From NCBI RefSeq assembly GCF_000235425.2, contig NZ_KI912266.1, forward strand, positions 7,955,130 to 8,019,129: DNA of 64,000 nucleotides, read 5' to 3'. Shown here piece after piece: positions 6,549 through 63,900 of this stretch. The number at the start of each line of letters is the position of its first letter. Position 1 is the first letter of the stretch. This DNA is from Pseudofrankia saprophytica. Lineage in GTDB: Bacteria > Actinomycetota > Actinomycetes > Frankiales > Frankiaceae. Below the pieces are notes generated by a model, which ran no database searches, was not told where the DNA came from, and worked only from the letters and a program-made list of their open reading frames with translations. The position numbers and the translations under genes were made by a program.

Positions 6549-6743
6549 CCCACCCTGGTCAACCCGCCCATCCCGCCATGGTCACCCCTGTATCCCAGCA
6601 GCCCACACCGGGCTCACCGCGAGGTGGTCACACCGACGAACCTGGCGACGCCTCGACGGAACGGAACGCGCGGACGGGTGGACGGACTGGGCGGACGGGC
6701 GGGGCGGACGGGCGGGCCGCCCGCCGAGGCGGCAGGAACCTGG

Positions 6744-10571: not shown

Positions 10572-10579
10572 CGCGCGCC

Positions 10580-47837: not shown

Positions 47838-47878
47838 ACGGTGGACGCGACGCTCAGCGAGTTGTCGGATAGGAGGAC

Positions 47879-48487
47879 ATGGGTCCTGTCGACGGCGTTG
47901 CCGGGTCTGGGGTTGGTGACATGTCCACGGTTGCGGAGCTCCAGCGTTCTGGACCCGAGACGGCCCAGGCCCGCATCGATGATCTTCTCGCTGTGTACGC
48001 CGATGCCTATGGCGCGGAGGTCGGCGATCGGAAAGTGACCGCGTTCGCGGACCGGCTCGCGCGGGCAGTGCGACGCCCGGGCTTCGAGGTCGCGTTCGCG
48101 TCGGTCGGCGACGCCGGGCTGGTCGGTTTCGTGTTCGGCTATCCACTGCCGGCCGGTGACACGCACTGGTGGGCGGGGCTACGTCCCGAGCCCGCCGCCG
48201 GGTTCGCGGTCGAGACCGGATCGCGGACGTTCGTGCTCGCGGAGATCGAGGTGCGCCGCGCGTTTCAGGGCAGCGGCGTGGGCCGCCAGCTGCACGACCT
48301 GCTGCTGACCGGGCGCCCGGAGGAACGGGCGACATTGGCGGTGAATCCGACGGCCGACCGGTCGCACGCGATCTACCGAAGCTGGGGCTGGGAGCTGGCC
48401 GGGCAGGTTCCGGGCAGCTCGGGCGACTACTTCGACGCCTACGACCTGTTCGTGATCTCGCTGGGCAGCCTGGCAGGGCGACGGTAG
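47879..48487 (+). CDS. GNAT-family N-acetyltransferase
   Basis: 202 residues. FVLAEIEVRRAFQGSGVGRQ (about 118-137) is the acetyl-CoA pyrophosphate-binding motif (R-x-x-G-x-G type, here Q-G-S-G-V-G). AIYRSWGWELAGQVPGS gives the C-terminal strand with the Tyr often acting as acid. The target is unknown; the YFDAYDLFVISL end resembles small-molecule or antibiotic acetylases only generally. ATG 47879 has AGGAGGAC seven bases upstream. The 3' end overlaps the convergent HTH-TPR regulator by 49 bases. Confidence 0.85.
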   Translation: MGPVDGVAGSGVGDMSTVAELQRSGPETAQARIDDLLAVYADAYGAEVGDRKVTAFADRLARAVRRPGFEVAFASVGDAGLVGFVFGYPLPAGDTHWWAGLRPEPAAGFAVETGSRTFVLAEIEVRRAFQGSGVGRQLHDLLLTGRPEERATLAVNPTADRSHAIYRSWGWELAGQVPGSSGDYFDAYDLFVISLGSLAGRR

Positions 48488-49995
48488 AGGCGGAGCTGTT
48501 CGTCGAGGTCCCGGACGGCCGCGGTGCGCTTCCAGGGCTCGAGGGCCCGGCGCAGGTGGACGATGCGGTCGTTGATGCGCCCGCTGCTGTGGGCCACGGT
48601 CGCCTTCGCGATCTCGGCGATGTGCGGGCAGGCTGCGGGGCCGTCGCCGTGGCGGATGACTGCCTCGGCCTGCATCGTCTGGGTCATGACCCGGTTGTGC
48701 AGGTTGGCCGGGTCGATGAGGGGCAGCGAGCGGCTGGCGGCGTCGAGGGCGGCGGCGGGCCGGCCGAGCAGGAGGCTCGCCTCGGCCTCGGTGCCCAGGC
48801 GGAACGACTCGTCGAAGAAGTACCAGCGATCGGCGGCCGGATCGTCGTCGCCGATCATCGCGGTAGCGGCGTGCTCCAGGGCGAGCGCCTCGTCGCAGCC
48901 GCTGTGCTGGTCGTCGTCCTGGGCATAGGCCCGAGCGGCGACATCGGCGGCGTACGCCACCGCCCGGGGGTTGCTGGTGCGTCGAGCCCAGGTCTGCGCG
49001 GCGACGGCGTGGTCGATACCGACACGAGGCTGACCGGTCCAGGTCGCGAGGTGGCTCATCGTGCACAGGACGTAGGTGACCAGGTCGGTGTCCTGGGCCG
49101 CGTGCGCGACGGCCCTGGCCTCGTCGTAGTAGTGGCTCGCCGTGCGGTAGTCACCGAGGTTGAACGTCAGCCACCCGGCCAGCTGGGTCAGCTCCGCGTA
49201 GGCGGACCGTGCCCGGCGAGCCTGCGCGGCCGCAGGCAGGCCGCGCAAGATCGTGGCGAGCATGTCGCGCTCGGCCATGACGCACTGGAGAGCGACCGCC
49301 GGCCCGAGTACGTCGCCATGCCGCCGGCAGTCCGCGATGACGGCCTCCGCCCGGTCAAGGGTGGCCGCGTCGAGCCGGCCCGGGTCGTCGAGCACCCGCG
49401 CGAGCCGCTGCTGGTCGTCGGTGATGCGTTCGAACACCGGCGCCGCCGCGGCGAGCGCGAACGCACCGCTGAGCTGGAACAGCAGCGCCCGGCGGTCGAC
49501 GTCCGCGCTTAGCCGCTCTCCCCACATGGTCACCGCCTGCGCGAGTTCGGTGAGGTCCGTGTACGCGAGCGTGTGGGACGACCACATCAGCCCGGCTAGT
49601 TCGGACTCTACGTCGACCGGCGTCCCGCTGATCGACACGTCGACGGCCGGCCGGAAATCGCCCAGGTCGGCGAGCAAATCGCCGACGGCGCACTGGTAGA
49701 GGCGGGCCAGGTTGGCGAGGACGCCGAGGCTCGGTTCGTGGCCTGTGGTGGCTGGCCACGTCTCCCAGTAGGAGATGTGTTTCAGCGTTTTCGGGTCGTC
49801 GGGCCAGCACGCGGTCCAGCGGTCCGCGACTTCCCGTTGGCTCCAGCCGCGGGCCAGCCGCATCGCCACCCTGGCGTTGATGCGGTAGCGAGAGCGGAAC
49901 ACCTCCGCGATCTCGTGCCATGTCCTCCCGTCCGCCCGCATCCGGGCGGACAGCTCCGCGCGCTCCTGGCGCTGGCTATGCGACATGGGCGGCAT
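48439..49995 (-). CDS. XRE-type HTH regulator with TPR repeats
   Basis: 518 residues. The N-terminal HTH is WSQREVADRWTACWP with a following YWETWPATTG and LANLARLYQCAVGDLLADLG, as in Xre/Cro-type proteins. The rest is helical with TPR-like spacing (AYAELTQLAGWLTFNLGDY, AASHYYDEARAVAHAAQD). Such HTH-TPR proteins often control nearby biosynthetic or conjugative genes, sometimes under a peptide or small-molecule signal. It is divergent from the queD operon across a 214-base gap, which makes it the best candidate for the operon's regulator (inference). ATG 49995 or the second ATG at 49986 may start it. Confidence 0.82.
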   Translation of the reverse strand: MPPMSHSQRQERAELSARMRADGRTWHEIAEVFRSRYRINARVAMRLARGWSQREVADRWTACWPDDPKTLKHISYWETWPATTGHEPSLGVLANLARLYQCAVGDLLADLGDFRPAVDVSISGTPVDVESELAGLMWSSHTLAYTDLTELAQAVTMWGERLSADVDRRALLFQLSGAFALAAAAPVFERITDDQQRLARVLDDPGRLDAATLDRAEAVIADCRRHGDVLGPAVALQCVMAERDMLATILRGLPAAAQARRARSAYAELTQLAGWLTFNLGDYRTASHYYDEARAVAHAAQDTDLVTYVLCTMSHLATWTGQPRVGIDHAVAAQTWARRTSNPRAVAYAADVAARAYAQDDDQHSGCDEALALEHAATAMIGDDDPAADRWYFFDESFRLGTEAEASLLLGRPAAALDAASRSLPLIDPANLHNRVMTQTMQAEAVIRHGDGPAACPHIAEIAKATVAHSSGRINDRIVHLRRALEPWKRTAAVRDLDEQLRLYRRPARLPSEITNRS

Positions 49996-50209: not shown

Positions 50210-50674
50210 GTGCGCACTCCCACGACGGGCGACAGACACGATCCGCGCCCACAGACGGAAACCGCCACAAGACCCGAGGTGACCCCGCCGGCCGGCCACT
50301 TTCGGGTCGGGAAACGTTTCAGCTTCGACGCCTCCCACCAGCTGCCCGGCCTGCTGGACGGGCACAAGTGCGCTCGGTTACACGGTCACACCTACACGGT
50401 GGAGATCGTGGTGGCGGCCGACATGCTGACCGATCCGGGATTCGTCACCGACTTCGGTGACCTGGCACCGTTGCGGGCCTACCTCGACGACGAATTCGAC
50501 CACCGACACCTCAACGAAGTCCTGGCCGCGCCGCCGACCGCCGAGAACCTGGCCGCCCACCTGGCCAGGTGGTGCCACGTTCACCTGGAGCCGTTGATCC
50601 CGGGCCAGGTTGTCGCGGTCCGGGTCAGCGAGACGCCCACGAGCTGGGCGATCTGGGAAGCGGACCCGCGATGA
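50210..50674 (+). CDS. queD: 6-carboxytetrahydropterin synthase (QueD)
   Basis: 154 residues. FSFDASHQL (His 43), HKCARLHGH (catalytic Cys 54; zinc His 58 and 60) and RVSETPTSWAIWE near the end are the full QueD/PTPS signature. QueD makes 6-carboxy-5,6,7,8-tetrahydropterin from dihydroneopterin triphosphate, the second step to 7-deazaguanines. It is about 30 residues longer at the N-terminus than usual; GTG 50210 has GGAGG seven bases upstream. It is the first gene of an operon, its stop overlapping the queE start (ATGA). GTP cyclohydrolase is not in the window, so the substrate comes from elsewhere. Confidence 0.92.
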   Translation: MRTPTTGDRHDPRPQTETATRPEVTPPAGHFRVGKRFSFDASHQLPGLLDGHKCARLHGHTYTVEIVVAADMLTDPGFVTDFGDLAPLRAYLDDEFDHRHLNEVLAAPPTAENLAAHLARWCHVHLEPLIPGQVVAVRVSETPTSWAIWEADPR

Positions 50675-51402
50675 CCGCCTCGGTGTCGCTGCTGGCCGCC
50701 GACGCGGAGACGACCCGGACGCTGCAGATCGTCGAGATGTTCGGGCCGACCTTCCAGGGGGAGGGACCGCACGCCGGTCAGCTCGCGCTGTTCGTACGGC
50801 TCGCCCAGTGCAACCTGTCCTGCCGCTGGTGCGACAGCCGCTTCAGCTGGGACTGGACACGTTTCGACCCACGTACCGAAACCCGACGGCTGCCCGTTGC
50901 GGAGATCGCGGACTGGGTGCTTGGTCAACCGGCACCCCTGGTGGTCATCACGGGCGGAGAACCGCTGCTGCAGCAACAGGCGCTAGTACCGCTGGCCGAG
51001 GCGCTGACGAGCGCTGGTCGGCGGGTCGAGGTGGAGACGAACGGGACGATCGCCCCGACCGCCGAGTTGGCCGGCGCGATCAGCGCGTTCATGGTGTCCC
51101 CGAAACTCGCCCACGCGGGTGGGCGGACCGCTCGCCGGCTCGATCCGGCCGCGTTGCACGCGTTCGCGGCCAGCGGGAAGGCCGCGTTCAAGTTCGTCGT
51201 CACCGGGCCGGACGACCTCGACGAGGTGGCCGCCGTGGTCGACCGGTTCGCGCTCGCTCCGGTGTGGGTCATGCCAGAAGCCACGAGCAGCGCCCAGCTC
51301 ATCACCGCGCTGCGGGAGCTCGCCGATGCGGCGCTGATCCGTGGCTGGAATCTGTCCACCCGACTGCATGTGCTCCTGTGGGAGGACACCCGTGGACGTT
51401 GA
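50671..51402 (+). CDS. queE: 7-carboxy-7-deazaguanine synthase (QueE)
   Basis: 243 residues. The radical SAM cluster is CNLSCRWC (Cys 47, 51, 54; CX3CX2C), preceded by FGPTFQGEGPHAGQ, which is typical of QueE. VVITGGEPLLQQQ and VEVETNGT complete the SAM-binding part. QueE rearranges carboxytetrahydropterin to 7-carboxy-7-deazaguanine. The start ATG 50671 overlaps queD stop by four bases and the stop overlaps the next gene. QueC, which would make preQ0, is absent from the window. Confidence 0.92.
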   Translation: MTASVSLLAADAETTRTLQIVEMFGPTFQGEGPHAGQLALFVRLAQCNLSCRWCDSRFSWDWTRFDPRTETRRLPVAEIADWVLGQPAPLVVITGGEPLLQQQALVPLAEALTSAGRRVEVETNGTIAPTAELAGAISAFMVSPKLAHAGGRTARRLDPAALHAFAASGKAAFKFVVTGPDDLDEVAAVVDRFALAPVWVMPEATSSAQLITALRELADAALIRGWNLSTRLHVLLWEDTRGR

Positions 51403-51889
51403 CCGTCTGACCTGGACCGAGGTCGCCGGGATCGCGGCGACGCTGGCCGACGCTGTGGCAGCCGACGGGATTCCCGACGTGATCATTGGCATCGCGCGCG
51501 GCGGGCTGGTGCCCGCGGTGCTGCTCGCTCATCTCCTGGGCCTTCGGGACGTGCGGGCGCTGGAGATCGCGCACACCGAGTCGGACGCGGTGAACGCCGC
51601 GAAGATCGACCTGCCGGTGCTCAGGAATTCCATGTCCCTTGGCCACCTGGCTGGCGGCAACGCGCTCGTCGTCGACGACATCGCCGGTAGCGGTGACACT
51701 CTCGTCGCCGCGCGGGAGCAGGTCGTTCTCGGCGGCGCCGCGTCGGTCCGCACCGCCGTGTGCCTGCTGAACCTGGCCAACTGGCCGGCCTGCCGGGAGG
51801 TTGCTGGCGACCGTGCCGGCGAGCAGGAACCTACGTACGTCGGCCGGCGAACCTCGCGGTGGGTGGTCTTTCCCTGGGAGCGGTCATGA
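51392..51889 (+). CDS. Type I phosphoribosyltransferase
   Basis: 165 residues. VIIGIARGGLVPAVLLAHLLG and ALVVDDIAGSGDTLVAA (the PRPP-binding D-D-x-A-G-S-G-D-T motif) identify a purine-type phosphoribosyltransferase (first quoted segment spans 20 residues up to HLL). The family moves ribose-5-phosphate from PRPP to a base; in pathways such as toyocamycin a similar enzyme converts the 7-deazapurine to its nucleotide. GTG 51392 has GGGAGG upstream and overlaps the end of queE. The stop overlaps the glycosyltransferase start (ATGA). The base used here is unknown. Confidence 0.85.
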   Translation: MDVDRLTWTEVAGIAATLADAVAADGIPDVIIGIARGGLVPAVLLAHLLGLRDVRALEIAHTESDAVNAAKIDLPVLRNSMSLGHLAGGNALVVDDIAGSGDTLVAAREQVVLGGAASVRTAVCLLNLANWPACREVAGDRAGEQEPTYVGRRTSRWVVFPWERS

Positions 51890-53004
51890 CGGTCGTCGTG
51901 TTCTGCCTGCTGACCTACCGGCCGGACCATCCGTCGGGCATCGAACGGAGCATCGCGGCGCTGGCCGCCGGGCTGCGCGGCCTTGGCCACACGGTCGCGA
52001 TCATCGCCGCGGGGCCGGCAGAGCCCACCGACGCCGTCGAGTCGGGCCTCGTCCGGCTGACGTCGGTGCGGCTGCCCCGGCCGGCGCGGAACGACGACGT
52101 CCTCGCCGCGCTCGCCGACCCACGACCGGTCGTGTCCGAGATGTCTGAAGTGCTGCGGCGACTGCGTGCCGATGTCGTGTGCTGGGGCGCACCGGTCTGG
52201 GGCTTGGGCTACCTGAACCCGGCGCCTCCTGGCGTGCGGACGGCGTTGATGGTGCACAACAGGATCCGGGCGAGTTCCACCGAGACGTGGTCGGCGGCGC
52301 TGGCCGCCGCCGACGCGGTGCTGCCGGCCAGCCCGTACCTCGTCACGGCCGCGGCGCAGGACGGCTGGGACACCAGCGCCTGGACGGTGGTCCCGAACGC
52401 GGTTCTCGTCCGTCCTCGGCCTCCGGACTATGACCAGCGGGAACAGCTTCGCCGGTCGGGTCCGCTGCGGCTGGTGTCACGAGCCGTTCCGGTCAAGGGC
52501 CAGGCACGACTCCTCGCGGCGATGCCGACGGCTTGGCGCCGCCAGGTTCAGGTGGTTCTCGCCGAGGCCGATTTCGAATTCGAGCAGGGCGAGCAGTCAG
52601 CCGCACTCGCCGCGTGCCGCGAGCAGGCCGCGCGGCGCCCCGAGCTGATCCAGATCCGGCCGGCGCTGTCCTGGCGGGACGTCCCGCCGTTCTTCGCGGG
52701 CGCGGCCGCCACCGTCATCTCGTCGCTCGAACCGGAGACGTTCAGCCACACGGCCGCCGAGGCGCTGTCCGCTGGAACTCCCGTGATCGCCTTCGATCAC
52801 GGCTATGTGCCCTCTCTCGCCGGCCCGGCAGGGCGCGCCGTGCCCCTGGAGGCTGGCTTCCCGGCGATCTGGCAGGCGTTGGACGACCTGCTCGCCAGTC
52901 ACGACGACTACCACGCCGCCAGCCAGGCAGCGCCCGCCCGGATCGACCCGCACACATCCGAAAAGGCGGCCGAGATCTTCCTCGCCGCGACAGTCTCCCG
53001 CTGA
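51886..53004 (+). CDS. GT4-type glycosyltransferase
   Basis: 372 residues. A GT-B fold: the N-half starts FCLLTYRPDHPSGIERSIAAL, the C-half has RAVPVKGQARLLAAM (nucleotide-sugar loop) and ISSLEPETFSHTAAEALSAG (E-x7-E GT4 motif). It transfers a sugar from a nucleotide donor to an unknown acceptor. With the next gene, a PIG-L deacetylase, it mirrors the MshA-MshB pair of mycothiol synthesis, where GlcNAc is attached and then deacetylated. The acceptor could be the deazaguanine nucleoside (inference). The ATG overlaps the previous stop. Confidence 0.85.
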   Translation: MTVVVFCLLTYRPDHPSGIERSIAALAAGLRGLGHTVAIIAAGPAEPTDAVESGLVRLTSVRLPRPARNDDVLAALADPRPVVSEMSEVLRRLRADVVCWGAPVWGLGYLNPAPPGVRTALMVHNRIRASSTETWSAALAAADAVLPASPYLVTAAAQDGWDTSAWTVVPNAVLVRPRPPDYDQREQLRRSGPLRLVSRAVPVKGQARLLAAMPTAWRRQVQVVLAEADFEFEQGEQSAALAACREQAARRPELIQIRPALSWRDVPPFFAGAAATVISSLEPETFSHTAAEALSAGTPVIAFDHGYVPSLAGPAGRAVPLEAGFPAIWQALDDLLASHDDYHAASQAAPARIDPHTSEKAAEIFLAATVSR

Positions 53005-53101
53005 TCTGTCCGACGTACCCCGCCGCCCGGTTTCCGGCACCGCCTACGGACCTGTCCGTACGGCCCCGTCCATTCCCTTCCACGGACAAGAGGAGGGTCC
53101 C

Positions 53102-53800
53102 ATGTTTGGGCTCCATTCCGGCGAACGTGCGCTCGTCGTGGGCACGCATCCTGATGACGAGACCGTCGGCATGGCCGGCACGATCGCCGCCATGACGGCC
53201 TGTGGCATTCACGTCGACGTGCTCGCCGTGACGTGCACGACCGCTCCTATGTACGGCGGCCACTCCGAGGTGCGCACCCGCCTGGATGAATTCCACGAAG
53301 CCTGCGACGTCCTCGGAGTGGGACAACGGCGGGTCGCCTGGTTAGACGACGAACGCGCGGCAAGCCCGGAGGCGTTCTTCCCCGATCTGGTGGCGCTCAT
53401 CGAGTCGGGCGAGCAGGTGTCCCTCGGCGCGTCCCGCCCGGCCGCGCTGTTCCTGCCCGCCGGCGGCCACCACCAGGACCATCGCGCCGTGCACTTGGCC
53501 GGCCTGGCGGCGGTCCGCCCGGGCTTCCGGGACGGCCGGCCGCTGCCTCGCATGGTTCTCGGCTACGACGGCCCGGAGGATCGGGCGTGGTTGGCCGGGC
53601 CGATGCCACGGCCGGCGATCGTCGACATCACACCCATGGTCGAAACCAAGGCCAAGGCGCTCAGCTGCTACGGCAGCCAGCTGCGAGCGAATCCGCACCC
53701 GCGCAGCGTCGAGAAGATCCAGGCGCAGGACTGCGCCGCCGGCGCCGAGCTAGGCACCCAGGCCGCCGAGCGGTTCGCCGTCTACCGGATGGCGTTCTGA
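53102..53800 (+). CDS. PIG-L family deacetylase
   Basis: 232 residues. VVGTHPDDETVGMAGTI is the diagnostic HPDDE zinc motif, and PAGGHHQDHRAVHLAGL carries the later zinc His (H-x-D-H-R). Family members remove acetyl from GlcNAc-type sugars. ATG 53102 has GAGGAGG upstream. A 97-base gap separates it from the glycosyltransferase; its stop overlaps the next start (TGATG). Order GT4 then PIG-L suggests it unmasks an amino sugar made by the preceding enzyme. Confidence 0.88.
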   Translation: MFGLHSGERALVVGTHPDDETVGMAGTIAAMTACGIHVDVLAVTCTTAPMYGGHSEVRTRLDEFHEACDVLGVGQRRVAWLDDERAASPEAFFPDLVALIESGEQVSLGASRPAALFLPAGGHHQDHRAVHLAGLAAVRPGFRDGRPLPRMVLGYDGPEDRAWLAGPMPRPAIVDITPMVETKAKALSCYGSQLRANPHPRSVEKIQAQDCAAGAELGTQAAERFAVYRMAF

Positions 53801-54552
53801 TGAGCGAAGCGACCCGCGTGGGCGGCCACGTACTTGTCGCGCACCAGCCCGGCTACCTGCCGTGGCCGGGCTACTTCTCCCGCCTTCTGGACGTCGACCG
53901 ATTCCTCTTCCTCGACCACGTCCAGTTCAGCTCCGGAAGCTGGCAGCAGCGCAACTACATCGCCGGCCACGACGGCCACCCCCGTCTGGTCACCGTCCCT
54001 GTCCGCCGTCCGCATCACCAGCCCATCACCGACGTCCGCATCAACGGCGATGAATGGCGCCAGCGCCACTGGAGCATCCTGCGCGAGGCGTACCGACGAA
54101 CCCGGTTCTGGCCGAGCTGGGAACCGCGCCTGGCCGCTATCTACGACTATCCCTGGCAGCGGCTCGCCGCGTTGAACGAGGCTCTCCTACGGCTTCTGCT
54201 GGACGGATTCGGCCTGCGCGTCGAGATCCTGCGGTCCAGCGACTTGCTCCCCACTGGGCGCCGGACCGACATGTTGATCGACCTGTGCCGGATCACCGGC
54301 GCCCAGGCGTTACGGGTCGGTACCGGGGCGACCGGCTACCTCGACGCCGACCGCCTCGCCACCGCGGGTGTGAACGTTGAAATAGCCGGTTACAGCCACC
54401 CGCCCTACGACCAGGGACGCCCCGGCTTCACCAGCGGGCTGTCTGCCCTGGATCTCCTGTTGCACCTCGGGCCTGCGGCCAGAGACGTCCTGGCCGTCGG
54501 CGCCACGACCGGCCCCTGGGTACCCGCCACGATGACAGGAAGTGCCCGATGA
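53800..54552 (+). CDS. WbqC-like family protein
   Basis: 250 residues. VAHQPGYLPWPGYFSRLLDVD and FLFLDHVQFSSGSWQQRNYI are the WbqC-family blocks (first block begins HQPGYLPWPGYF). WbqC-like proteins occur in O-antigen and other glycan clusters and often beside aminotransferases; their reaction is uncertain, sometimes proposed to be acyl or amino-acyl transfer to an amino sugar. That fits a substrate from the PIG-L step and an amine from the DegT enzyme downstream (inference). The start overlaps the PIG-L stop; the stop overlaps the kinase start. Confidence 0.85.
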   Translation: MSEATRVGGHVLVAHQPGYLPWPGYFSRLLDVDRFLFLDHVQFSSGSWQQRNYIAGHDGHPRLVTVPVRRPHHQPITDVRINGDEWRQRHWSILREAYRRTRFWPSWEPRLAAIYDYPWQRLAALNEALLRLLLDGFGLRVEILRSSDLLPTGRRTDMLIDLCRITGAQALRVGTGATGYLDADRLATAGVNVEIAGYSHPPYDQGRPGFTSGLSALDLLLHLGPAARDVLAVGATTGPWVPATMTGSAR

Positions 54553-55217
54553 CAGGCGCCTTGCCCTGGATAACCCTCGAAGGGGTCAATGGCGTGGGGA
54601 AGAGCTACCTGGCTCGCCGCGCCGCCACGGAGCTCGGTGACCGGTGTGTTCCGCTCGTCGAGCTCTCCGACAGCCATCCCGGTCTGCTTCCGGGCCGGAT
54701 CATCGACGCCCTGCTTGCCGGGGGCGACCCGTTCCTGCGTACCGGCTGTCCGCAAACCGAGACGCTGCTGCTGGCCGCCCTCCAGGTCCACCGGTACGAG
54801 ACCACCACCGTCCGCGCGGGCCAGGTCGTCCTGGAGGACCGCGGCCCGCACAGCGTCGCCGTGTACCAGGCGGCTGTCCTCGGAGGCGACGCCGCGAGCG
54901 ACGACGAGACGTTCACCGAGGCTCAGGGGCTTCTTGACCTGATGGCGCGGTGGCGACCGCTGCCTGGCCGGACGATCCTGGTCCTCGACGATCCGGCCAG
55001 CTGCCGGCGGCGCTTCGAGGAACGGCTGGGCCGGCCGGCTCTCCCCGGCGAGATCGGTCTCATGGAGCGCGTCACCCGGCTCTACGGCCGATTCGCCGCC
55101 GCGCTGCCTCACCGGTTCGAGGTGCTCGACCGCCGCCGTCTCGACGCCAATGCCTGCGCCGACTCGATCGTCGCGGTCTGCCGACAGGCAGCCGGCGTGT
55201 CCAGGTGGCCACGGTGA
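54549..55217 (+). CDS. Thymidylate-kinase-like nucleotide kinase
   Basis: 222 residues. TLEGVNGVGKSYLARRAA is the P-loop, EDRGPHSVAVYQ the DRx motif, and LDDPASCRRRFEERLGR the later Arg/lid region, as in thymidylate kinases. It probably phosphorylates a nucleotide. Being inside this operon and weakly related to housekeeping Tmk, it may act on a pathway intermediate. The ATG overlaps the previous stop; the stop overlaps the radical SAM GTG (GTGA). Confidence 0.8.
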   Translation: MTGALPWITLEGVNGVGKSYLARRAATELGDRCVPLVELSDSHPGLLPGRIIDALLAGGDPFLRTGCPQTETLLLAALQVHRYETTTVRAGQVVLEDRGPHSVAVYQAAVLGGDAASDDETFTEAQGLLDLMARWRPLPGRTILVLDDPASCRRRFEERLGRPALPGEIGLMERVTRLYGRFAAALPHRFEVLDRRRLDANACADSIVAVCRQAAGVSRWPR

Positions 55218-56260
55218 CGCCGCGCGGCGCGGCGGCGGTGACGCTGCTCTGGGCACTGCGCAGCCCGTGTCCGCTGTCGTGCCGGTACTGCTACTTCGGC
55301 ACCATCGAGGAGCACAGGCAGACGCCCGTCACCGGTCCGGGCACGCTCTCGCACCTGTCCCGCACCGACCTCACCGCCGCCGAGGTCCTCGCGTTCGCCC
55401 GAACGGTGGCCGGGTCCGCGGTGAGACGGGTGTTCCTCGCCGGCGGCGAGCCACTCGTCTGGCCGCCCGTCTTCCAAGTGATCGAGACCCTCAAGCGCGC
55501 CGACGTGCAGGTGGTCGTGTGCACCAACGGCCTTCCGCTGAACCGGCCGGACATCGTCTCCACGTTGCTCGATCTCGACGTGGATGCCGTATCGGTCTCC
55601 GTGGACTCCGCAGATCCCGCTCATCACGACGCCTGGCGTCCGTCGCGCAACGGCAAGGACGGCTGGCGGCAGGTGGTCACCGGAATCAGGTCCCTCGTCG
55701 CCGCACGCGCCGCCGGCGCCTCGCCCCGCGTCGGCGTGTACATGGTCGTCACCCGGCAGAACGTCACTGCCATGGCCGAGACCGCGCGGCTGGCCGCGGA
55801 CCTCAGCTGTGACTACTTCGTCCCGCAGCCCATAGCGCTCGACCAAAGCCACCAGCTCCATCACCAGCTGTCCCTCACCGTCGCGGACCTCCCCGACCTC
55901 CGGGGACAGTTCGCGGCGCTCGCCGAGGCCGGGCTGCCGCTGAGAATGCCCACCGCTGCATATCCCGAGCAGGTCGCCTCGTCGGTCCGCGAGCCGGTCG
56001 GCGTCGCCTATGGCTGCTTTGGCGGGTCGTCCCTCTTCTTCGTCGAGCCTGACGGGTCGGTCTGGGACTGCCCGTCGTCCCTGCGCATCGCGGCCACCCC
56101 CACCATTCGGCATCGCACCATCCGCGGCGCCAACGCCACCGAGGTCTTCGCGGGCACCGACGACTGCAACGACTGCCCGCTGTTCTCGGTCGACTGCGTG
56201 AACATGTGGCCGCTCCTGGATTTCGACCGGTTCCTGACGCCGATCGGGAGCCAGCCGTGA
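55214..56260 (+). CDS. Radical SAM enzyme with SPASM-like C-terminal cysteines
   Basis: 348 residues. The cluster motif is CPLSCRYC (Cys 19, 23, 26). VFLAGGEPLVWP and VCTNGLPLNRPD are the usual SAM-binding strands. The C-terminal region adds several cysteines (YGCFGGSS, VWDCPSS, CNDCPLFSVDC) of the spacing seen in SPASM/twitch domains, which hold auxiliary iron-sulphur clusters. Such enzymes modify peptides or sugars, including oxidation, C-C and epimerisation steps. GTG 55214 overlaps the preceding stop; the stop overlaps the aminotransferase start. The substrate is unknown. Confidence 0.87.
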   Translation: MTPRGAAAVTLLWALRSPCPLSCRYCYFGTIEEHRQTPVTGPGTLSHLSRTDLTAAEVLAFARTVAGSAVRRVFLAGGEPLVWPPVFQVIETLKRADVQVVVCTNGLPLNRPDIVSTLLDLDVDAVSVSVDSADPAHHDAWRPSRNGKDGWRQVVTGIRSLVAARAAGASPRVGVYMVVTRQNVTAMAETARLAADLSCDYFVPQPIALDQSHQLHHQLSLTVADLPDLRGQFAALAEAGLPLRMPTAAYPEQVASSVREPVGVAYGCFGGSSLFFVEPDGSVWDCPSSLRIAATPTIRHRTIRGANATEVFAGTDDCNDCPLFSVDCVNMWPLLDFDRFLTPIGSQP

Positions 56261-57348
56261 ACGTGGCCCGCGAGACGCTGTCGCCCATGGCCTTGCTGGC
56301 GCAGGTCGTCGCCTCCATGCCGGATCCGACCAGCCGCGAGCAAGCGGCGTTACTCGAAGCCGAGCTGGCCACCGCCCACAACGTCGCTCACGCGATCACG
56401 GTCTCGTCCGGAACGGCGGCGCTGCACACCGCGCTCGTCGCCTGCGGCATCGGCCCCGGCGACGAGGTCCTCCTTCCCGCAGCCACTGTGATCATGACCG
56501 TGGCCGCGGTCGTCCAGGCAGGCGCGCGGCCGGTGTTCGTCGACGCCGGCCCCGACGGCGGACTGCTCGACCTGGCCGACGCCGCCCCGAAGATCACGGC
56601 CAGGACGCGGGCTGTCGTCCCGGTCCATCTCGCCGGCCGCTGCGGAGACCTCGACGCGCTCACCGATCTGGCTGTCCGCGCCGGCCTGGACGTCATCGAA
56701 GACGCCTGCCAGGCACACGGCAGCCGTTACCGAGGACGCCTGCTCGGCACCGTCGGCACGGTCGGCTGCTTCTCCCTCAAGGACGGCAAGCTCGTGTCCT
56801 GCGGTGAAGGCGGCTACCTCGTCACCGACAACCCGGACCTCGCCGCCCGCGCCGCCGCCTTCCGCACCCACTGGCAGACGCCGGCGCCGGGCCAGCCCGC
56901 GCTGTCCCGCCTCGGCACCAACTACCGGCTCGCGGAGCCCCTCGCCGCCCTCGCCCGCTGCAGCCTCGCCCGCCTCGACGACACGCTCACCCATCGCCAG
57001 CAGGTCGCCAGACACCTGGTCGAGCTGGTCGGCGACCTGCCCGGTCTGGCCCACATCCCGGCCACGGCCGATGAACAGCCGAACGGCTACTGTGCCCTGT
57101 GGCGAATCTTGCTGCCCGACCCACGCGGACTGTGCCGCCGCCTCGCCGACGTCGGCATCGTCAACAGCGTCGGTACGTTCGGGCTCCGCGCCGCCCACCT
57201 GCACCCCGCCTGCCAAGAGCTCCATCCCGCGCCCTGTCCGCGAGCCGAGCGAGACATCGACACGCTGCTGGCCGTCCTGACACCAGAGGACGACCAGCGG
57301 GTCGACCAGATCGCGGCCTTGATCAGGAACGAGGTCCAGGCATGGTGA
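56257..57348 (+). CDS. DegT/DnrJ/EryC1/StrS-type aminotransferase
   Basis: 363 residues. VSSGTAALHTALVACGI binds PLP phosphate, VIEDACQAHGSRYRGR is the Asp-containing strand, and CFSLKDGKLVSCGEGGYL carries the Schiff-base lysine (usual FSxxxxKxxxxGEGG). These enzymes transfer an amino group to a keto-sugar. Together with the radical SAM gene before it (possible sugar oxidation), a deoxy-amino sugar could be built (inference). GTG 56257 overlaps the previous stop; the end overlaps the exonuclease gene. Confidence 0.88.
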   Translation: MNVARETLSPMALLAQVVASMPDPTSREQAALLEAELATAHNVAHAITVSSGTAALHTALVACGIGPGDEVLLPAATVIMTVAAVVQAGARPVFVDAGPDGGLLDLADAAPKITARTRAVVPVHLAGRCGDLDALTDLAVRAGLDVIEDACQAHGSRYRGRLLGTVGTVGCFSLKDGKLVSCGEGGYLVTDNPDLAARAAAFRTHWQTPAPGQPALSRLGTNYRLAEPLAALARCSLARLDDTLTHRQQVARHLVELVGDLPGLAHIPATADEQPNGYCALWRILLPDPRGLCRRLADVGIVNSVGTFGLRAAHLHPACQELHPAPCPRAERDIDTLLAVLTPEDDQRVDQIAALIRNEVQAW

Positions 57349-58010
57349 TCCTGGAGGACCCGGATTTCCGGGACCACACCTTCGTGGTCATCGACTTCGA
57401 GGCACTCACCCCGAAAGGCCGCCCCGCAGAACCCGTCGAAGTCGCGGCCGTCGCCGGGTCGTTCCGTGGCGGGCAGTGGGCCGAGTCGGGACGGTTCAGC
57501 TCCCTGATCCGGCCGCCCGACGACGTTCCAGTTACCCCGTTCGACATCGCCCAGACCGGCCTGAACGCCACGGTACTTCGCGCCCAGCGGCCAGCCGCGC
57601 TGGTCATGGCGTCCCTCGACGCTCGGCTGACCGCACCGCCCTATCGGCTGGTTGCCCATCATGCCCCCACCGAAGCCGGGCTCATCGCCGGCCAGCGCGA
57701 GCACTGCCCGACGCTCGCGGCCACCTCGCTGCTGTGCACCGTCCGGCTCGCGCGCGCCGCCTACCCCGATCTTCCTTCCCACAGCCTGAACGCGGTGCTC
57801 CACCATCTCCGCATCCCGCTCCCCGCCGACCGGCACCGCGCCCTGCCGGACGTCGAACTCACGGTGCAGGTGTTCGCACGCGTTCTCGCTGACGGCGCCG
57901 CTGCCGGCCGCTGGTGCAGCCTGCGCGACCTCGACCAGGTCGCCGGCATTCCGCCCAAATCGGCAAGACAAGAGCCAGCGAATGCCCCCGCCCAGCCGAC
58001 CCTGTTCTAG
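57342..58010 (+). CDS. DEDD-type 3'-5' exonuclease-like protein
   Basis: 222 residues with a DnaQ-like fold: VVIDFEALTPKGRPAEPVEV (D-x-E), VAHHAPTEAGLI in the middle, SHSLNAVLHHLRIPL, and HRALPDVELT (H-x4-D) near the end. The C-terminal KSARQEPANAPAQPTLF includes a QxxLF-like sliding-clamp motif end. It overlaps the aminotransferase stop by seven bases and is surely co-transcribed. Its role in a biosynthetic operon is not clear; it might process a modified nucleotide. Its stop overlaps the convergent Nudix stop by four bases (CTAG). Confidence 0.78.
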   Translation: MVILEDPDFRDHTFVVIDFEALTPKGRPAEPVEVAAVAGSFRGGQWAESGRFSSLIRPPDDVPVTPFDIAQTGLNATVLRAQRPAALVMASLDARLTAPPYRLVAHHAPTEAGLIAGQREHCPTLAATSLLCTVRLARAAYPDLPSHSLNAVLHHLRIPLPADRHRALPDVELTVQVFARVLADGAAAGRWCSLRDLDQVAGIPPKSARQEPANAPAQPTLF

Positions 58011-58507
58011 ACCGAACCACCCGCCGCGGCCCGCGCCGCTATCTCGTCGATCCCGGCGAACAACTCCTTGGCCTGCAAGCGCGAATCCTCAGCCACGTCC
58101 GCCCCCTCAGCCAACTCCCCCGCGCTGAACCACCGCACCCGGGTCTCTGGCGGCGCAACCTCACCAGCGAACAGGCCCACGAACACGTGGTCGACATGAA
58201 CGTGCCGCTCGACTGTGTGGTTGTCCGGACTCGCCGCCATCTCCACGATCCACCACGGCGCGACAACAGGCTCATGCGGAAACCCGTCAGGCAGCGGCGT
58301 CGTCGGACCGCCGAGCAGCCACACCCGGCAACCCACCTCCTCGGCAACCTCGCGCACGGCGGCCTCCGCCGCGCTCTCGGCCGGCTCCACGTGCCCACCG
58401 GGCGGAATCCAGCCGGCGAAGCGCCGATGCCACACCATCGCGACCCGCCAGACCTCGTCCTCCGACCGCCGGAAGACGAAAACCGTCGCCGTCGCCTCCT
58501 TGATCAC
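58007..58507 (-). CDS. Nudix hydrolase
   Basis: 166 residues from GTG 58507, chosen because GGGAG lies about 7 bases upstream. The Nudix box is complete: GGHVEPAESAAEAAVREVAEEVG (positions G...E, REvaEEvG). It hydrolyses nucleoside diphosphates linked to other groups. An ATG at 58621 would extend the protein by 38 residues. It is convergent with the exonuclease-like gene, and the strand change marks the end of the tight operon. It could still serve the same pathway. Confidence 0.85.
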   Translation of the reverse strand: MIKEATATVFVFRRSEDEVWRVAMVWHRRFAGWIPPGGHVEPAESAAEAAVREVAEEVGCRVWLLGGPTTPLPDGFPHEPVVAPWWIVEMAASPDNHTVERHVHVDHVFVGLFAGEVAPPETRVRWFSAGELAEGADVAEDSRLQAKELFAGIDEIAARAAAGGSV

Positions 58508-58669
58508 CGCTGTTCTCCCGCCCGTCCCGAACGCCGCCGACAGCCCGTGCTCGAACGCCACGAGCCTCCCATGTCGGACGCGACATTCCCGTCGCGACAC
58601 CACCCGTGGACCACCAGGCATGGCCGTTGACACGCCCCGCCGCCCAGCCATGACCCCAGAGAGGTAAGC

Positions 58670-59506
58670 ATGGAGCCCGTCTGGAACGGGATGCTGACCT
58701 GCGACTACGAACGCACCCGCCCTCAAGCCACCCCGTTCGAATGGGATCTCTACACCCGATCCCTGACTCGATGGCCGCTGATCCTCATGAACGACCCGGA
58801 ATCCTATGGCCGGCTGCGCCGGTCCGGGATCGTCGACATCCCCGAACTGGTCCACCACACCATCACCGGCCGCTGGCACGCGCGCCTTCGCAACCTGGAC
58901 TACGTCGCCGACCTGATTTCCCGGACAGTGGCCGACCGGCGGGCCGTCGCCCTCGTCCTCGACGCGTGCGACGCCGCCAGACGAGAAAACGACCTGGCCG
59001 GCCTCACCGCAGCTCTGGCAACGGCGACCACGGCATTCCTGCGCGTCAACGCGACCCACGTCGTCAACTGGCTGCTCCCAGAAGACCGATGGGAACGACT
59101 CCTCATCGACCTACTCGGCTCGCGGGAGAGCGCGCTCACCTGCCTGTCAGCACTCCAACTGCCCACCGAACCGGGCCACATCCTCGCCACGGCGACAGCC
59201 GAAACCGACGTTCTCGCCCGGCGCGCGTCCGCCGCCGCCCGACGCGAAGCCTGGACGGCCGCGGCCCTCGTCGCCGCGGCCGGCAACGACCCGACGCTCA
59301 CCGAGGTCCGCGCCCTGGCGGCGGTGCTCGGCTGGGCCGCCGACAGCGAAGAACGCCGCAAAGAACTCCGCGAACGCCTCCTGGCCACCGCTCGAGCCTG
59401 GTGCGAGGTCACCAACGCCAACCCCGACCGGATCACCATTGAGGATCTGCTGGGAGAAGACCACCATGGCCCGCACCAAGACGATCAACCTTCGGGACGC
59501 GTCTGA
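58670..59506 (+). CDS. Helical protein of unknown function
   Basis: 278 residues, no family recognised. The N-terminus (MEPVWNGMLTCDYERTRPQ) resembles the start of some Frankia/Streptomyces unknowns; most of the chain is Ala/Arg-rich helix (DACDAARRENDLAGL, LIDLLGSRESALTCL). ATG 58670 follows AGAGAGG. The 3' end overlaps the PEP-synthase-like gene by 41 bases, so the two are coupled. It may be a partner or linker protein of that phosphotransferase. Confidence 0.65.
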   Translation: MEPVWNGMLTCDYERTRPQATPFEWDLYTRSLTRWPLILMNDPESYGRLRRSGIVDIPELVHHTITGRWHARLRNLDYVADLISRTVADRRAVALVLDACDAARRENDLAGLTAALATATTAFLRVNATHVVNWLLPEDRWERLLIDLLGSRESALTCLSALQLPTEPGHILATATAETDVLARRASAAARREAWTAAALVAAAGNDPTLTEVRALAAVLGWAADSEERRKELRERLLATARAWCEVTNANPDRITIEDLLGEDHHGPHQDDQPSGRV

Positions 59507-60752
59507 CCCCGCCCAGCACGGTGGGAAGGCAGCGGCGCTTGCCGCCCTGATCCGCCGCGGACTGCCCGTACCGGACGGACTCGTCCTGTCCGCCGATCTC
59601 ACCGACGGCCAGGTCGCCGAGGCGGCCACCGAGGTTCTCCGCTGGGCGACGTCGACAAACACTTTCCACGGCCTCGTCGCCCGATCCAGCGCACCCGCGG
59701 AAGACGGAGCGCAAGCGTCGTTCGCCGGTCTCTACGCCTCCCGCTTCTCCCCGGCCAGCTCTGAGGCGCTCCGCGACGCCATCCGGGACGTCCGCGCAAC
59801 GGCGGCCACGCCCGCCATCCGCGCCTACGCCGCTCTCCGGAACATCACGACACCGCCGGGCGTCGCAGTACTCGTCCAGCGCGCTATCCGGCCCTACGCC
59901 AGCGGCGTCCTCGCCGCCGAAATCGACCAGGGAACCATCCGCCGATGGACCCTCGAAGCCGTCCACGGCCTCGCGATCCCCGTCGTCAGCGGCACCCAGC
60001 GCGGCGAATGTCACTACAGCGACAGCAAGACCCCGTCCGCCGGCGCTCAAACAGAGATCATCCTGCCAGGCACCGCGACCGAACTGAGCCAGCCACCCGG
60101 CGAATGGATCACCCTCCCAGGCCTCGACAACCGCCCCGGGCAGCGCACCAAGATCCGAACCTCCGACGCCGGGCTGCTCCATCTCTACCCACCCGACGCT
60201 GACCAGCGCCGCCCGATCCTCATCGCAGCGCTACGCGATCAGCTTGTCGAGACCGCAGCGATCGTCGCGGCCGTCCTCCACCACACGAGCATCGACATCG
60301 AATGGGCCGTGACTCCAGACCGCGCCGTCCACATCCTCCAGGCCCGTCCCCTCACCAGCCCGATCCCCGAAGCGCCCAAGCTGACGCATAGCGCCGGCAC
60401 AATCTGGCGGGGCCTCCCCGCAGCACCAGGACGCGGCACAGGACCCGCCCATCACCTCACCACCGGGGCCTCACCAGCGATCGGCCCGGGAAGCGACCAG
60501 GTCGTCATCCTCTGCGACAACCTCGACACGAATGCACTCGACGCCTTGCTGTGCAACCCGGCCGGGATCGCCGCGACCCGCGGCGGCCCGCTGTCCCACG
60601 CCGCCATCGTCGCCCGCGAACTCGGCATCCCCTGCACCACCGCCCTACCCGACGACCTCCTCACCATCCGAGCGAGAACCCCCATCACGATCGACGGAAC
60701 AATCGGCACCGCGGAGATCATCAAGAGCATCGAAAGATCACCCCAACAGTGA
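59466..60752 (+). CDS. Two-domain PEP-synthase-like protein (ATP-grasp plus phosphohistidine domain)
   Basis: 428 residues. The N-terminus GGKAAALAALIRRGLPVPDG and VARSSAPAEDGAQASFAG are the ATP-grasp part of PPDK/PEP synthase. Near the C-terminus ATRGGPLSHAAIVARELGIP carries the mobile-domain phosphohistidine (about 378). The PEP/pyruvate TIM barrel is absent and no rifampicin-type acceptor domain lies between them, so the acceptor must be a small molecule or another protein. ATG 59466 has GGGAGAA upstream. Rifampin phosphotransferases share the two end domains, which suggests phosphotransfer to a product (inference). Confidence 0.82.
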   Translation: MARTKTINLRDASDPAQHGGKAAALAALIRRGLPVPDGLVLSADLTDGQVAEAATEVLRWATSTNTFHGLVARSSAPAEDGAQASFAGLYASRFSPASSEALRDAIRDVRATAATPAIRAYAALRNITTPPGVAVLVQRAIRPYASGVLAAEIDQGTIRRWTLEAVHGLAIPVVSGTQRGECHYSDSKTPSAGAQTEIILPGTATELSQPPGEWITLPGLDNRPGQRTKIRTSDAGLLHLYPPDADQRRPILIAALRDQLVETAAIVAAVLHHTSIDIEWAVTPDRAVHILQARPLTSPIPEAPKLTHSAGTIWRGLPAAPGRGTGPAHHLTTGASPAIGPGSDQVVILCDNLDTNALDALLCNPAGIAATRGGPLSHAAIVARELGIPCTTALPDDLLTIRARTPITIDGTIGTAEIIKSIERSPQQ

Positions 60753-60983: not shown

Positions 60984-63900
60984 CTACAGCGGACTTCTCC
61001 AATCCGCAAGACCAAAGGCCAGCGTGACGCCGCCGCTCTTCTCGATCACTTCCCGAAACCGCGGCTTGGGCCCAAATATTTCGTCACGTCGCATCGGACT
61101 ATTCAGGAAGAAGTCAAAACCGTACAGCACTGCGATTCGTCCAGCCGTACGCGCACGCTCGATCCACCGCATATCCGGCACGTTATCTGCAATAGCTAGG
61201 AGCATGCCGTCTTCGTCGCGAAGACAAAATCGCCCGCCTTCGACGAACGCCGAAACTCCGGTGCTCTCTGGGATAGCCGAGACGTCGCCAAGCACCCGTC
61301 GGAAGCCAGCTGAGGCGAGCCGATAGACTTTGAGCTCAACGGGTTGGAGCTTAGGATCTAGCGTGACGAGCACTGGTTGACGAGGCTCTAGGATGGCAAT
61401 CGGAAAAATTGACGACGATGATGAATCGCCCCGAAGTATATCTGAATTCGCGATCAGCTGAATCCAGAGAGTGGTCGCGCTTGAGTTCTCAAGGTAGTAA
61501 CCGTAGGATTTAGGATCTTCAAAGAGCTCCCACACCGGTGATCTGCGCGGAATTTTTGCGACGATCTCCGATATTCTGGCCTGCTCACGGTCGTGATAGT
61601 CCTTCAGGAGAAGCGTTCGAACCTTCTTCTCGAAACCAAAAAATACCCTCTCCCACCTGACGGCTGTTTCTTCCTCATCGGCAAAAGATCTGTCTGAAAT
61701 CAGCTTCAGCTTCTCAATCGCGCCTGCAAAATCGGCACGGGTGGCGCGCTCCACGGCGCGCAGGAATTCGAGCTGCACAAGTTCATGTCCAGCAGGTTTG
61801 AGAACCTCGTCGGATCCGCATTTTTCAAGGAGGCGGCCGAGGAATGGGGCGGCCGACTCGTCGGCGAACAGCCAGTTTAGCGTCGCGGTGAAACCGGCGT
61901 TGTGAATCAACATCCGGATCGAGAAATGATGGAGAGAGTTGGGAACTACGTGGCGGGAAAAAGCATCGAGTTCCGCCATTGCCGCATCCCATTTTCGCTG
62001 CGCAGCGAGGGCCTCGATGAGTAGTCGCCGTATTTCCATCACAGGGGCGACACGCGAGCTCTCCGGCCTAACCAAGAGCGCTCGTGCCGACTTTTCAGCC
62101 TCGGCCGGCCGACCGCTCTGTATCAGCCGGTTAATCGCCGATATCGCGAGTGCTATCTCAGCGACCGGCGTCGTCGGCAGACCTTCCACGAGCCGGCCAT
62201 AGAGCCCATGAACGGACCGGATCTCGGGCTCGTTTGGAGTAAGCTCCAGCTGTATGTTAAGAAGCGCGTAGGCCTGCGCGGCAAGATCGGCAGCCAGCAT
62301 CGAATTCTCTAAGACTAGACCCTCGACGTACGCATACACCTCACCACCGAGCTGCTCCGACAAGATGGCCGCCGTGGCAGACGTCTGCTCGGCGGCGTGA
62401 ACTGTAGCAAGCGTGATTCGGGTCTGGGTTGTAAGCAGTCCACGCGGGCCCTCAATTTCATTGAGCCATCGTAGTTCAAGTTCCAATAGATCGACTGCGT
62501 CGTGGCTCCTGCCCGTCGAGAAATAGAAGCCCGCGAGGTTCCCTAAGAGAGCAGCCGTCCCTCCGTTACGAACGTTCAGACGGCGAATATTGGAGACCAA
62601 CTCCGATGCGTGCTGTGCGACCTGCCACGTCCACTCGGACTCGTCGTGGTCCATTCCGGCCCCCAGCCACCTCGTCGTGTGAAAAGCAGCTCGTGTCAGC
62701 GGAGCGTCTGGGGATATCGTCGCCTCGAACTCCCGGCGGAGGACGGTCTGCAAAACGGTATTCAATGAAACCGTCTCATTTTGCAGAGAGTCAAAATTGA
62801 AGGCCGACGGCAATGGCTCCGATCGGTGCACAAACGAGATATTGACGAGCTCTCGAAGGGTTTCACGTACCAACCCGTCGGATTCGTCGAGGACAGCCGG
62901 TCCGATCAAATCTTGCGGAACCTCCAACGGAGATATACACGCAGAAGCCATCGCCAGGTGCAAGGGAATTCCGACGGCGCCGAAGAAACTCATGTAGCCG
63001 AGAACTTCCACGGCGACGGCCGAAGCCACTCGATTCACCTTCGCGCCTTGCCTAAGTCTCTCTAGGCTCGTACGTATTGCAGATACGAGGGTGCGGGGAT
63101 ACCCCTGAGGCACTGAGAGATGGTCATCCATCGCGCGATCTTTGATCAGATCACGGTACTCGGTTATACGGTCTGGCGGAAGCCCACAGGAGACTATGTA
63201 ACCACTCGCGAGCTCGATTGCCAGCGGCCACGCGTCGAGCGTCTCGACCAGCGAGAGAAGCGAGTTCTGATGTCTCTCTGTTTCCGTGCCATCGAGCCGG
63301 AGTCGGCGGACAAGAAGGTTGAGAGCTTCCTCGGAGTTCATCCTCTCAACGAGAATCCTGGTCTGTGCGTATGACCATCCTGCCGATGCTGTCGACGTCA
63401 CAATGACGTCGCCTCTGCCGAACCTCGGTAGCCACGCCTTTACAGAGTCAGGTATGACATCGTCAAAAACAATTAGCCATCGGCCTGATATCCGCTGAAG
63501 GAGTGCATGCACCTTTTCCCGGAGGTAGTCGAGGCCTCGGGATGTTGCCGATTCTCCCTCGCTTTGAGTGCCAAGGTGGCTAAGTACACGAGTAAATGAG
63601 GCCGCCAGAGCGTCACTTGTTGTTCCATCGACCCATAGAATCTGATCATACAGGTGAGAGTGTTCGGCGATGTAGGCGACTGCGAGACTAGACTTTCCGA
63701 TCCCGGATAGTCCGGTGATCGCGCATAACACCGTTCCGACGCGCGACTCTGTCGACGTTTCGAATGTCGCCGCCACCTGCCCGACAAGTGTGGATCTTGG
63801 AATGTCGGGGATAGGTGGAACTGGCCCCGTAATCACGCCCCAGTCTTGGCGCCCGAGCGCAGCGCTGAGACTCTCATTGCTGATATTTAGATCGGCCAAG

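Follow-up and report, generated by a model that had tools for sequence, protein, structure and literature searches.

The closest described relative of the locus analysed here is the tubercidin pathway, in which the phosphoribosyltransferase (PRT) TubE has been shown to use phosphoribosyl pyrophosphate (PRPP) and 7-carboxy-7-deazaguanine (CDG) rather than deazaguanine, and whose genes TubA–TubI, as they appear in the available excerpts of that work, include a Nudix hydrolase (TubG) and list no QueC (PMC6112128). Our subject is a window of 64,000 nucleotides from the ~10 Mb genome of Pseudofrankia saprophytica, a soil bacterium and Frankia relative (contig NZ_KI912266.1, positions 7,955,130 to 8,019,129), and within it an operon that shares with tubercidin a 6-carboxytetrahydropterin (CPH4) synthase, a CDG synthase, a PRT, a nearby Nudix protein and the lack of QueC, TubE being compared by its description and not by sequence. 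To this set the operon adds a second radical S-adenosylmethionine (SAM) protein, a DegT aminotransferase, a thymidylate kinase-like enzyme, an exonuclease and clade-specific decoration genes. Toyocamycin/sangivamycin and huimycin biosynthesis also have a deazaguanine start, and huimycin further shares a glycosyltransferase and N-acetylglucosamine (GlcNAc). Huimycin and toyocamycin were put forward for comparison in a first-pass annotation of this DNA, which did not use the tubercidin precedent, and are the weaker comparators because both clusters, in the portions of the sources available, hold a QueC homologue (ToyM/HuiB) that this genome lacks; the set huiA–huiG, as given there, is also without a DegT or second radical SAM gene.

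Parallels to the remaining genes come from several pathways. In butirosin (BtrN/BtrS) and blasticidin S (BlsE and an aminotransferase) a sugar radical SAM enzyme occurs in a pathway with an aminotransferase, and the puromycin pathway combines nucleotide oxidation, transamination and a nucleotide pyrophosphohydrolase. The operon resembles the first two in its radical SAM–aminotransferase pair, BtrN being likened by general description and not by sequence; BlsE, according to the part of its description available, is a decarboxylase working on a nucleoside sugar, whereas the reaction proposed for our enzyme is an oxidation. Puromycin, again likened by description and not by sequence, differs in its adenine nucleotide and its oxidase. 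For self-resistance, DNA glycosylases linked to the trioxacarcin cluster are a precedent in the excerpt available (PMC8934636); there the glycosylases remove adducts, while we propose a clamp-docked exonuclease of the proofreading type.

We regard the chances as evenly balanced that the operon is a biosynthetic cluster for an amino-modified 7-deazaguanine nucleoside, with the exonuclease included for self-protection. It would then be a CDG nucleoside cluster of the tubercidin kind, having a sugar-modifying core that is new and a self-protection device that probably is. The chemistry of QueD and QueE and the TubE reaction are established elsewhere; the sugar chemistry, the product, its target and the self-protection we infer. 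If the proposal is true, the deazapurine antibiotics, of which few are known, would gain a whole family of nucleosides, DNA replication would be suggested as the target by a resistance gene's sequence, and the self-protection strategy would be one without precedent in the literature searched. That open-licence literature, in partial coverage (excerpts of PMC6112128, PMC7439116, PMC12648386, PMC11888242, PMC13144596, PMC3715490, PMC4549789 and PMC10421592), yielded no description of this gene set, nor of add-on clamp-tethered proofreading as antibiotic self-resistance.

Layout and recurrence of the operon

The operon runs on the + strand from queD (50210) to the end of the exonuclease gene (58010) and is followed by three further genes, one of them for a protein called x278; clade A is the window's own clade, described below.

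50210..50674, + strand: QueD-like 6-carboxytetrahydropterin synthase (PTPS, E 8.9e-29)
50671..51402, + strand: QueE-like 7-carboxy-7-deazaguanine synthase (NCBIfam QueE 2.5e-28, below the curated cut-off)
51392..51889, + strand: purine-type PRT, proposed CDG–PRPP transferase (Pribosyltran 3.5e-13)
51886..53004, + strand: GT4 glycosyltransferase, clade A accessory (Pfam and presence table)
53102..53800, + strand: PIG-L deacetylase, BshB1-like, clade A accessory (Pfam; NCBIfam scores below cut-off)
53800..54552, + strand: WbqC-family protein, clade A accessory (PF08889, E 2e-59)
54549..55217, + strand: thymidylate-kinase-like nucleotide kinase, core (weak match, under the Pfam cut-off; P-loop conserved)
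55205..56260, + strand: radical SAM protein with SPASM/twitch-like C terminus, core (Pfam; conserved cysteines)
56257..57348, + strand: DegT/DnrJ-family aminotransferase, core (PF01041, E 4.2e-74)
57342..58010, + strand: DEDDh-type exonuclease, core (RNase_T 1.9e-12)
57993..58007, + strand: C-terminal QPTLF of the exonuclease, putative sliding-clamp-binding motif (QxxLF in 30/32 rows)
58007..58621, − strand: Nudix hydrolase, convergent with the operon (PF00293, E 2e-14)
58670..59506, + strand: x278, mostly helical, 278 residues, clade A accessory (no Pfam family over cut-off)
59466..60752, + strand: phosphoenolpyruvate (PEP)-synthase-like phosphotransferase with ATP-binding and phosphohistidine domains, clade A accessory (PPDK_N 1.9e-21, PEP-utilizers 5e-15); PPDK-like below

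Pfam and NCBIfam bear out the gene order from QueD to the exonuclease given in the first-pass annotation. Its statement that four-base overlaps run through most junctions was slightly overstated: eight of the nine junctions do overlap, by 1–13 bases, four of them by exactly four, and the GT4 and PIG-L genes are separated by a 97-bp gap. The Nudix and PEP-synthase-like genes follow as it said, the former on the − strand and with x278, which had gone unmentioned, between the two.

A profile scan of the genome collection for the radical SAM protein returned 71 stretches, 37 of which encode a relative, at 34 distinct loci (33 actinobacterial and one from Ktedonobacteria); as the scan was built on two peptide patterns, the number of related loci is at least 34. 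Carriers belong to Frankia, Actinomadura, Micromonospora, Spongiactinospora, Nonomuraea, Streptomyces, Nocardiopsis, Nocardia, Amycolatopsis and others. The recurrence of the gene set in 34 further loci shows that the operon is genuine and no chance grouping; the actinobacterial loci among them answer the earlier suggestion of a search in other actinomycetes. Within the order, the radical SAM protein occurs in 4 of 35 genomes, the window's own included, and across the phylum in its own genome only (1 of 396 sampled, with up to five candidates scored per genome).

Counted over 35 rows, i.e., the 34 loci and the window, the kinase profile, the radical SAM protein (by construction) and DegT are present in all 35, the PRT in 34, QueD in 33, and QueE and the exonuclease in 32 each. 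The profiles behind this presence table were themselves made from these loci, matches count from 40 bits, and the flanks covered are 10 kb at most and shorter where a contig ends; the low-GC Ktedonobacteria locus (L038) was read by open reading frame list and Pfam. Contig ends are reached where L027 misses QueD and QueE, and where L040 misses QueD, QueE and the PRT. The Ktedonobacteria locus holds the PRT, kinase, radical SAM, DegT, exonuclease and QueD genes together, along with a methyltransferase and a second kinase. Many of the carrier strains have culture-collection numbers.

Candidate route from CDG to an aminonucleoside

In QueD, CxxxHGH and the other conserved positions are retained in 32–33 of 33 rows, and the CxxxCxxC and GGEP motifs of QueE are invariant in 32/32 rows; the loss of active sites, named earlier as a refuting outcome, is not seen, and the assignment of CDG formation to this pair stands. 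Both are divergent members of their families: against the best NCBIfam models, QueD misses the curated cut-off by less than 1 bit and QueE by ~107 bits. The search for folE suggested earlier finds a single copy in the genome, located away from the operon. The PRT carries DD-x-x-G-x-G in 34/34 rows and has the purine PRT 1vdm as its nearest solved structure (E 3.7e-16). CDG ribosylation is the most economical reading of the QueD–QueE–PRT trio: the PRT would join CDG and PRPP into a CDG ribonucleotide as TubE does in tubercidin, and QueC would not be needed, because CDG would be used directly. Since TubE is a precedent for a PRT acting on CDG, a nucleoside or nucleotide is likelier than the sugar-decorated base implied by the glycosylated and aminated deazapurine of the first-pass annotation, of which the secondary-metabolite-like operon and the DegT aminotransferase hold up.

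The absence of QueC and tRNA-guanine transglycosylase (TGT) reported for the window extends to the whole of its own genome, with zero matches to QueC (control positive in 12/14) and zero to the TGT family PF01702 (control 14/14); DpdA and the dpd genes are covered via PF01702, which a very divergent DpdA could escape. Among the 34 other cluster genomes, 18 have a QueC match at E 0.001. Seven of these matches are full-length (188–252 bits) and lie in five genomes, those of L012, L013, L037, L038 and L040; a partial QueC-like gene (41–48 bits) occurs in three Micromonospora genomes (L012, which is also among the five, L015 and L018); and eleven genomes have fragments only, of 21–25 bits over 53–76 positions, which we take as unrelated. 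The QueC-like gene of these three Micromonospora records, where the exonuclease is absent from the stretch covered, perhaps encodes an amide-forming QueC relative acting on CDG. Tubercidin itself is an unlikely product of the window's operon because, in contrast to its pathway, no Pfam match to a UbiD decarboxylase or a GMP reductase is found among the operon's proteins, the rest of the genome not having been searched for either. The CDG carboxylate is probably kept in the product.

Three of the core genes encode the kinase, the radical SAM protein and DegT. The kinase has a conserved P-loop in the alignment of cluster rows and thymidylate kinases as its best PDB relatives (E 0.02). In the radical SAM protein, CxxxCxxC, C271, C289, C324, C331 and G284 are invariant in 35 rows and a fifth C-terminal cysteine, C321, is present in 32 of 35, an arrangement that we take to be SPASM/twitch-like; the nearest solved sequence is BlsE (E 2.4e-06), and BlsE, MoaA, viperin-like enzymes and DesII are among the Foldseek neighbours of its model (predicted local distance difference test score, pLDDT, 87.9). 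DegT retains K178, presumably the pyridoxal phosphate lysine, in 35/35 rows, and perosamine synthetase ranks, with other sugar aminotransferases, among its best PDB relatives. It is mainly because a radical SAM protein and a sugar-type DegT are paired in 35/35 rows that we propose oxidation of the ribose followed by transamination.

The route might then run as follows. The thymidylate-kinase-like enzyme would raise the phosphorylation state of the CDG ribonucleotide, the radical SAM enzyme would oxidise a sugar hydroxyl (the 3′ position is a guess) to a ketone, and DegT would turn the ketone into an amine to give an amino-deoxy-deazaguanine nucleoside. Phosphates would be removed by the Nudix protein and, in other clades, by HAD or inositol-monophosphatase-like enzymes. 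The core would be decorated in the window clade by GT4, PIG-L, WbqC, x278 and the PPDK-like protein, and in the largest sister clade (B) by a SAICAR-synthetase-like ligase.

The exonuclease and its C-terminal tail

In the exonuclease, D18, E20, H165 and D170 are present in 32/32 rows. Past the exonuclease domain the linker varies in both length and sequence, and the tail, which the first-pass annotation did not mention, still reads QxxLF in 30/32 rows, as QPTLF, QQSLF, QESLF, QDELF, QSGLF, QGELF and other variants; the two rows without it are L030, where the Gln is absent (...GLF..), and the Ktedonobacteria row (QTTLW). The pattern Q..[LM]F within the last 45 residues is met in 30 of the 684 predicted proteins of the cluster loci, 27 of them exonucleases and 3 others. 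In Streptomyces sp. H27-H5 (L024) there are two copies of the clustered exonuclease (6532-7728 and 9890-10906), and both end in QxxLF, the second being counted among the 27.

The tail resembles the sliding-clamp-binding motif and may be one. In the portions of the literature available, the clamp-binding consensus is published as Q-L-x-L-F, is termed weak and, in transposases, is almost always C-terminal, and residues 947–954 of M. smegmatis DnaE1 are an AlphaFold-predicted clamp contact peptide. The DnaE polymerase of the window's own genome (L051, a frame of 1220 codons) has QESLF near position 985. No motif of the QxxLF type was seen in the frames read for the two other RNase_T genes of this genome (L053, L054) or for three weak homologues (L044–L046). 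The exonuclease is found in 4 of 296 sampled genomes of the phylum, one of which is its own, and the other three (of 295) are at 32–36% identity. A search with a DNA pattern coding for QxxLF in 16 genomes gave several matches in every genome and was uninformative.

We propose that a cluster-dedicated exonuclease sent to the replisome could shield the producer from a product that finds its way into DNA, because the exonuclease is near-confined to the clusters among the genomes sampled and carries a polymerase-like QxxLF tail. DNA polymerase would insert the nucleotide form, which would block or poison the strand, and the DEDDh exonuclease, docked on the clamp via its tail, would excise the misincorporated product and so protect the producer. 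Tentatively, and with some doubt, we raise the possibility that a deazaguanine aminonucleotide is taken into DNA, where it terminates or poisons the strand, and that a dedicated, clamp-docked proofreading DEDDh exonuclease lets the producer survive.

Several observations count against the proposed nucleoside pathway and its self-protection device. The acidic residue of the second DEDDh motif is canonically Asp, whereas position 111 is Glu in 31/32 rows and Asp only in the Ktedonobacteria row. Position 2 of the tail is never Leu in the 30 tails, as against Leu in the published consensus; the clamp-binding reading hangs on a motif of five residues; and no QxxLF-type motif is present in L052, the genome's second polymerase-III-alpha-like protein. 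Three Micromonospora loci (L012, L015 and L018) have the core and a QueC-like gene but no exonuclease in the stretch covered (L015 ends 3.6 kb past the radical SAM gene); their kinase matches, at a distance of 3–10 kb from that gene, may belong to a different kinase. The Ktedonobacteria locus has no recognisable QueE in the 21 kb covered, and no transporter was identified in the window's operon. In the Foldseek ranking of the radical SAM model, sactipeptide maturases take places 1–3 and PqqE the fourth; because such a match is generic and fixes no chemistry, the dehydrogenase reaction is deduced from the pairing with DegT.

Clades, accessory genes and rival readings

In a maximum-likelihood tree of the radical SAM protein, the window groups with ten other rows in clade A (support 91/93, not starred), five rows form a Micromonosporaceae clade (97/98) and eighteen form clade B (100/99); the Ktedonobacteria row sits on a long branch and its place is unsure. 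The clade lists were set after the tree had been seen, L014 and L039 being moved to the Micromonosporaceae group. The clades match accessory gene content. In clade A, GT4 is present in 11/11 rows, PIG-L and WbqC in 10/11, x278 and the PPDK-like protein in 9/11 and the SAICAR-synthetase-like enzyme in 0/11. Clade B has HAD in 18/18, the SAICAR-synthetase-like enzyme in 16/18, an Rv2466c-like protein in 15/18 and two kinase-profile matches in all 18 rows, with PIG-L, WbqC, x278 and PPDK in 0/18 and GT4 in 1/18 (L035, 8 kb away). FolE is found in 5/5 rows of the Micromonosporaceae clade, QueC-like genes in 3/5 and SAICAR-like genes in 1/5. A tree-grouping test (A 11, B 19, C 3, two rows ungrouped) required 3 changes against a shuffled mean of 12.0, a value as low being reached in 0/200 shuffles. 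The clades offer natural variants around one core, decorated by GT4/PIG-L, by a SAICAR ligase or with a QueC-like gene, and horizontal transfer is suggested because Frankia records fall in both clade A (L009, L010) and clade B (L035). The carboxylate of CDG would be a fitting target for amidation by clade B's SAICAR-synthetase-like enzyme. A 2025 JACS paper by Ji et al. ('Deazapurine amide-bond synthetases'), reportedly on peptidyl deazapurines, may cover these enzymes and could describe relatives of clade B. The Rv2466c-like protein of the same clade resembles mycothiol-dependent nitroreductase/DsbA-like proteins (e.g., L025:15396-16136).

This distribution also bears on a product of the huimycin kind, close to the view of the first-pass annotation, in which GT4 would add GlcNAc to CDG, PIG-L would deacetylate it and the PRT would be incidental. 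The two genes adjoin in the window clade and huimycin, in the excerpt available, does carry GlcNAc on a deazapurine. We nevertheless consider this reading unlikely, as PIG-L occurs in no locus beyond the window clade and GT4 in the single distant case of L035, against a PRT in 34/35 rows, and the huimycin cluster, in the same excerpt, holds a QueC homologue for which this genome has no match. The comparison of the GT4–PIG-L pair with MshA/MshB likewise loses weight, the pair being accessory to one clade and PIG-L scoring 62.2 bits with the BshB1 model (cut-off 182.5) and 20.2 bits with MshB (cut-off 224), which makes it a member of neither family.

An alternative is a viperin-like antiviral system, in which the radical SAM enzyme and nucleotide kinase would supply a chain-terminating nucleotide directed at phages, the host being spared by the exonuclease. 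The radical SAM and kinase genes adjoin, the radical SAM protein scores up to 62 bits with PADLOC pVip profiles and has viperins among its fold neighbours, as seen above, and an NB-ARC gene lies next to the cluster. Set against this, the NCBIfam ScmF family outscores the viperin model (67.8 versus 53.9 bits), the viperin score lying below its cut-off of 180; of nine proteins run in PADLOC, only the radical SAM protein, QueE and the exonuclease match, and to generic families; the clade-specific tailoring sets resemble secondary metabolism; and tblastn finds no counterpart of the NB-ARC gene in the 52 loci searched. Such a system is, in our view, quite improbable.

DNA or tRNA modification with CDG-derived bases, to which QueD and QueE beside a nucleotide kinase and an exonuclease might point, is rejected as very improbable, since TGT and QueC matches are lacking in the own genome and a TGT-family gene occurs in just 3 of the 35 cluster genomes (those of L025, L036 and L038), so that the operon is not always accompanied by a modification enzyme and the first-pass view that modification is not indicated is upheld. 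Hardly any probability attaches to a CDG-based redox cofactor or low-molecular-weight thiol conjugate made by BshA/BshB-like steps, for which the BshB1-like PIG-L and the Rv2466c-like proteins would speak, because these two fall in different clades, no cysteine-adding enzyme is recognised in the operon by Pfam scan, and the sporadic distribution fits a secondary metabolite better.

The remaining accessory proteins of the window's operon region are the WbqC protein, x278 and the PPDK-like protein. The WbqC protein has no solved relative up to E 1, and no work on the function of its family was found in the literature searched. For the x278 model, which is of good confidence (pLDDT 87.8), no fold match in the PDB improves on E 0.23. 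The PPDK-like protein keeps the histidine H378 of GGPLSH in 9/9 rows, x278 and this protein co-occur in the same nine rows, and the two may form a split phosphotransferase with x278 as the substrate-binding part. Three features flank the cluster.

47278-48487, + strand: AAA_33/zeta-toxin-like ATPase overlapping a GNAT acetyltransferase, beside the regulator
48439..49995, − strand: divergent regulator-like protein, 518 residues (sub-cut-off HTH_23 match, E 0.0087)
60984-63977, − strand: NB-ARC/TPR-like protein, 997 residues (57% G+C versus about 71% around)

The regulator-like gene is divergent as first annotated; the HTH-TPR architecture given to it is not recovered, as Pfam gives no TPR match and only the sub-cut-off HTH_23. 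A profile made from regulator-like proteins of related loci recognises it at E 7.8e-30, with high composition bias, and two members of that profile set are also without a Pfam family. The AAA_33, GNAT and NB-ARC genes are left out of the cluster because tblastn at E 1e-5 finds no counterpart for any of them in the 52 loci searched, also when the complexity filter is switched off and positive controls are included, and the NB-ARC gene, given its base composition, is probably foreign. Lying so close to genes proposed to make an amine, the GNAT N-acetyltransferase could be one for resistance.

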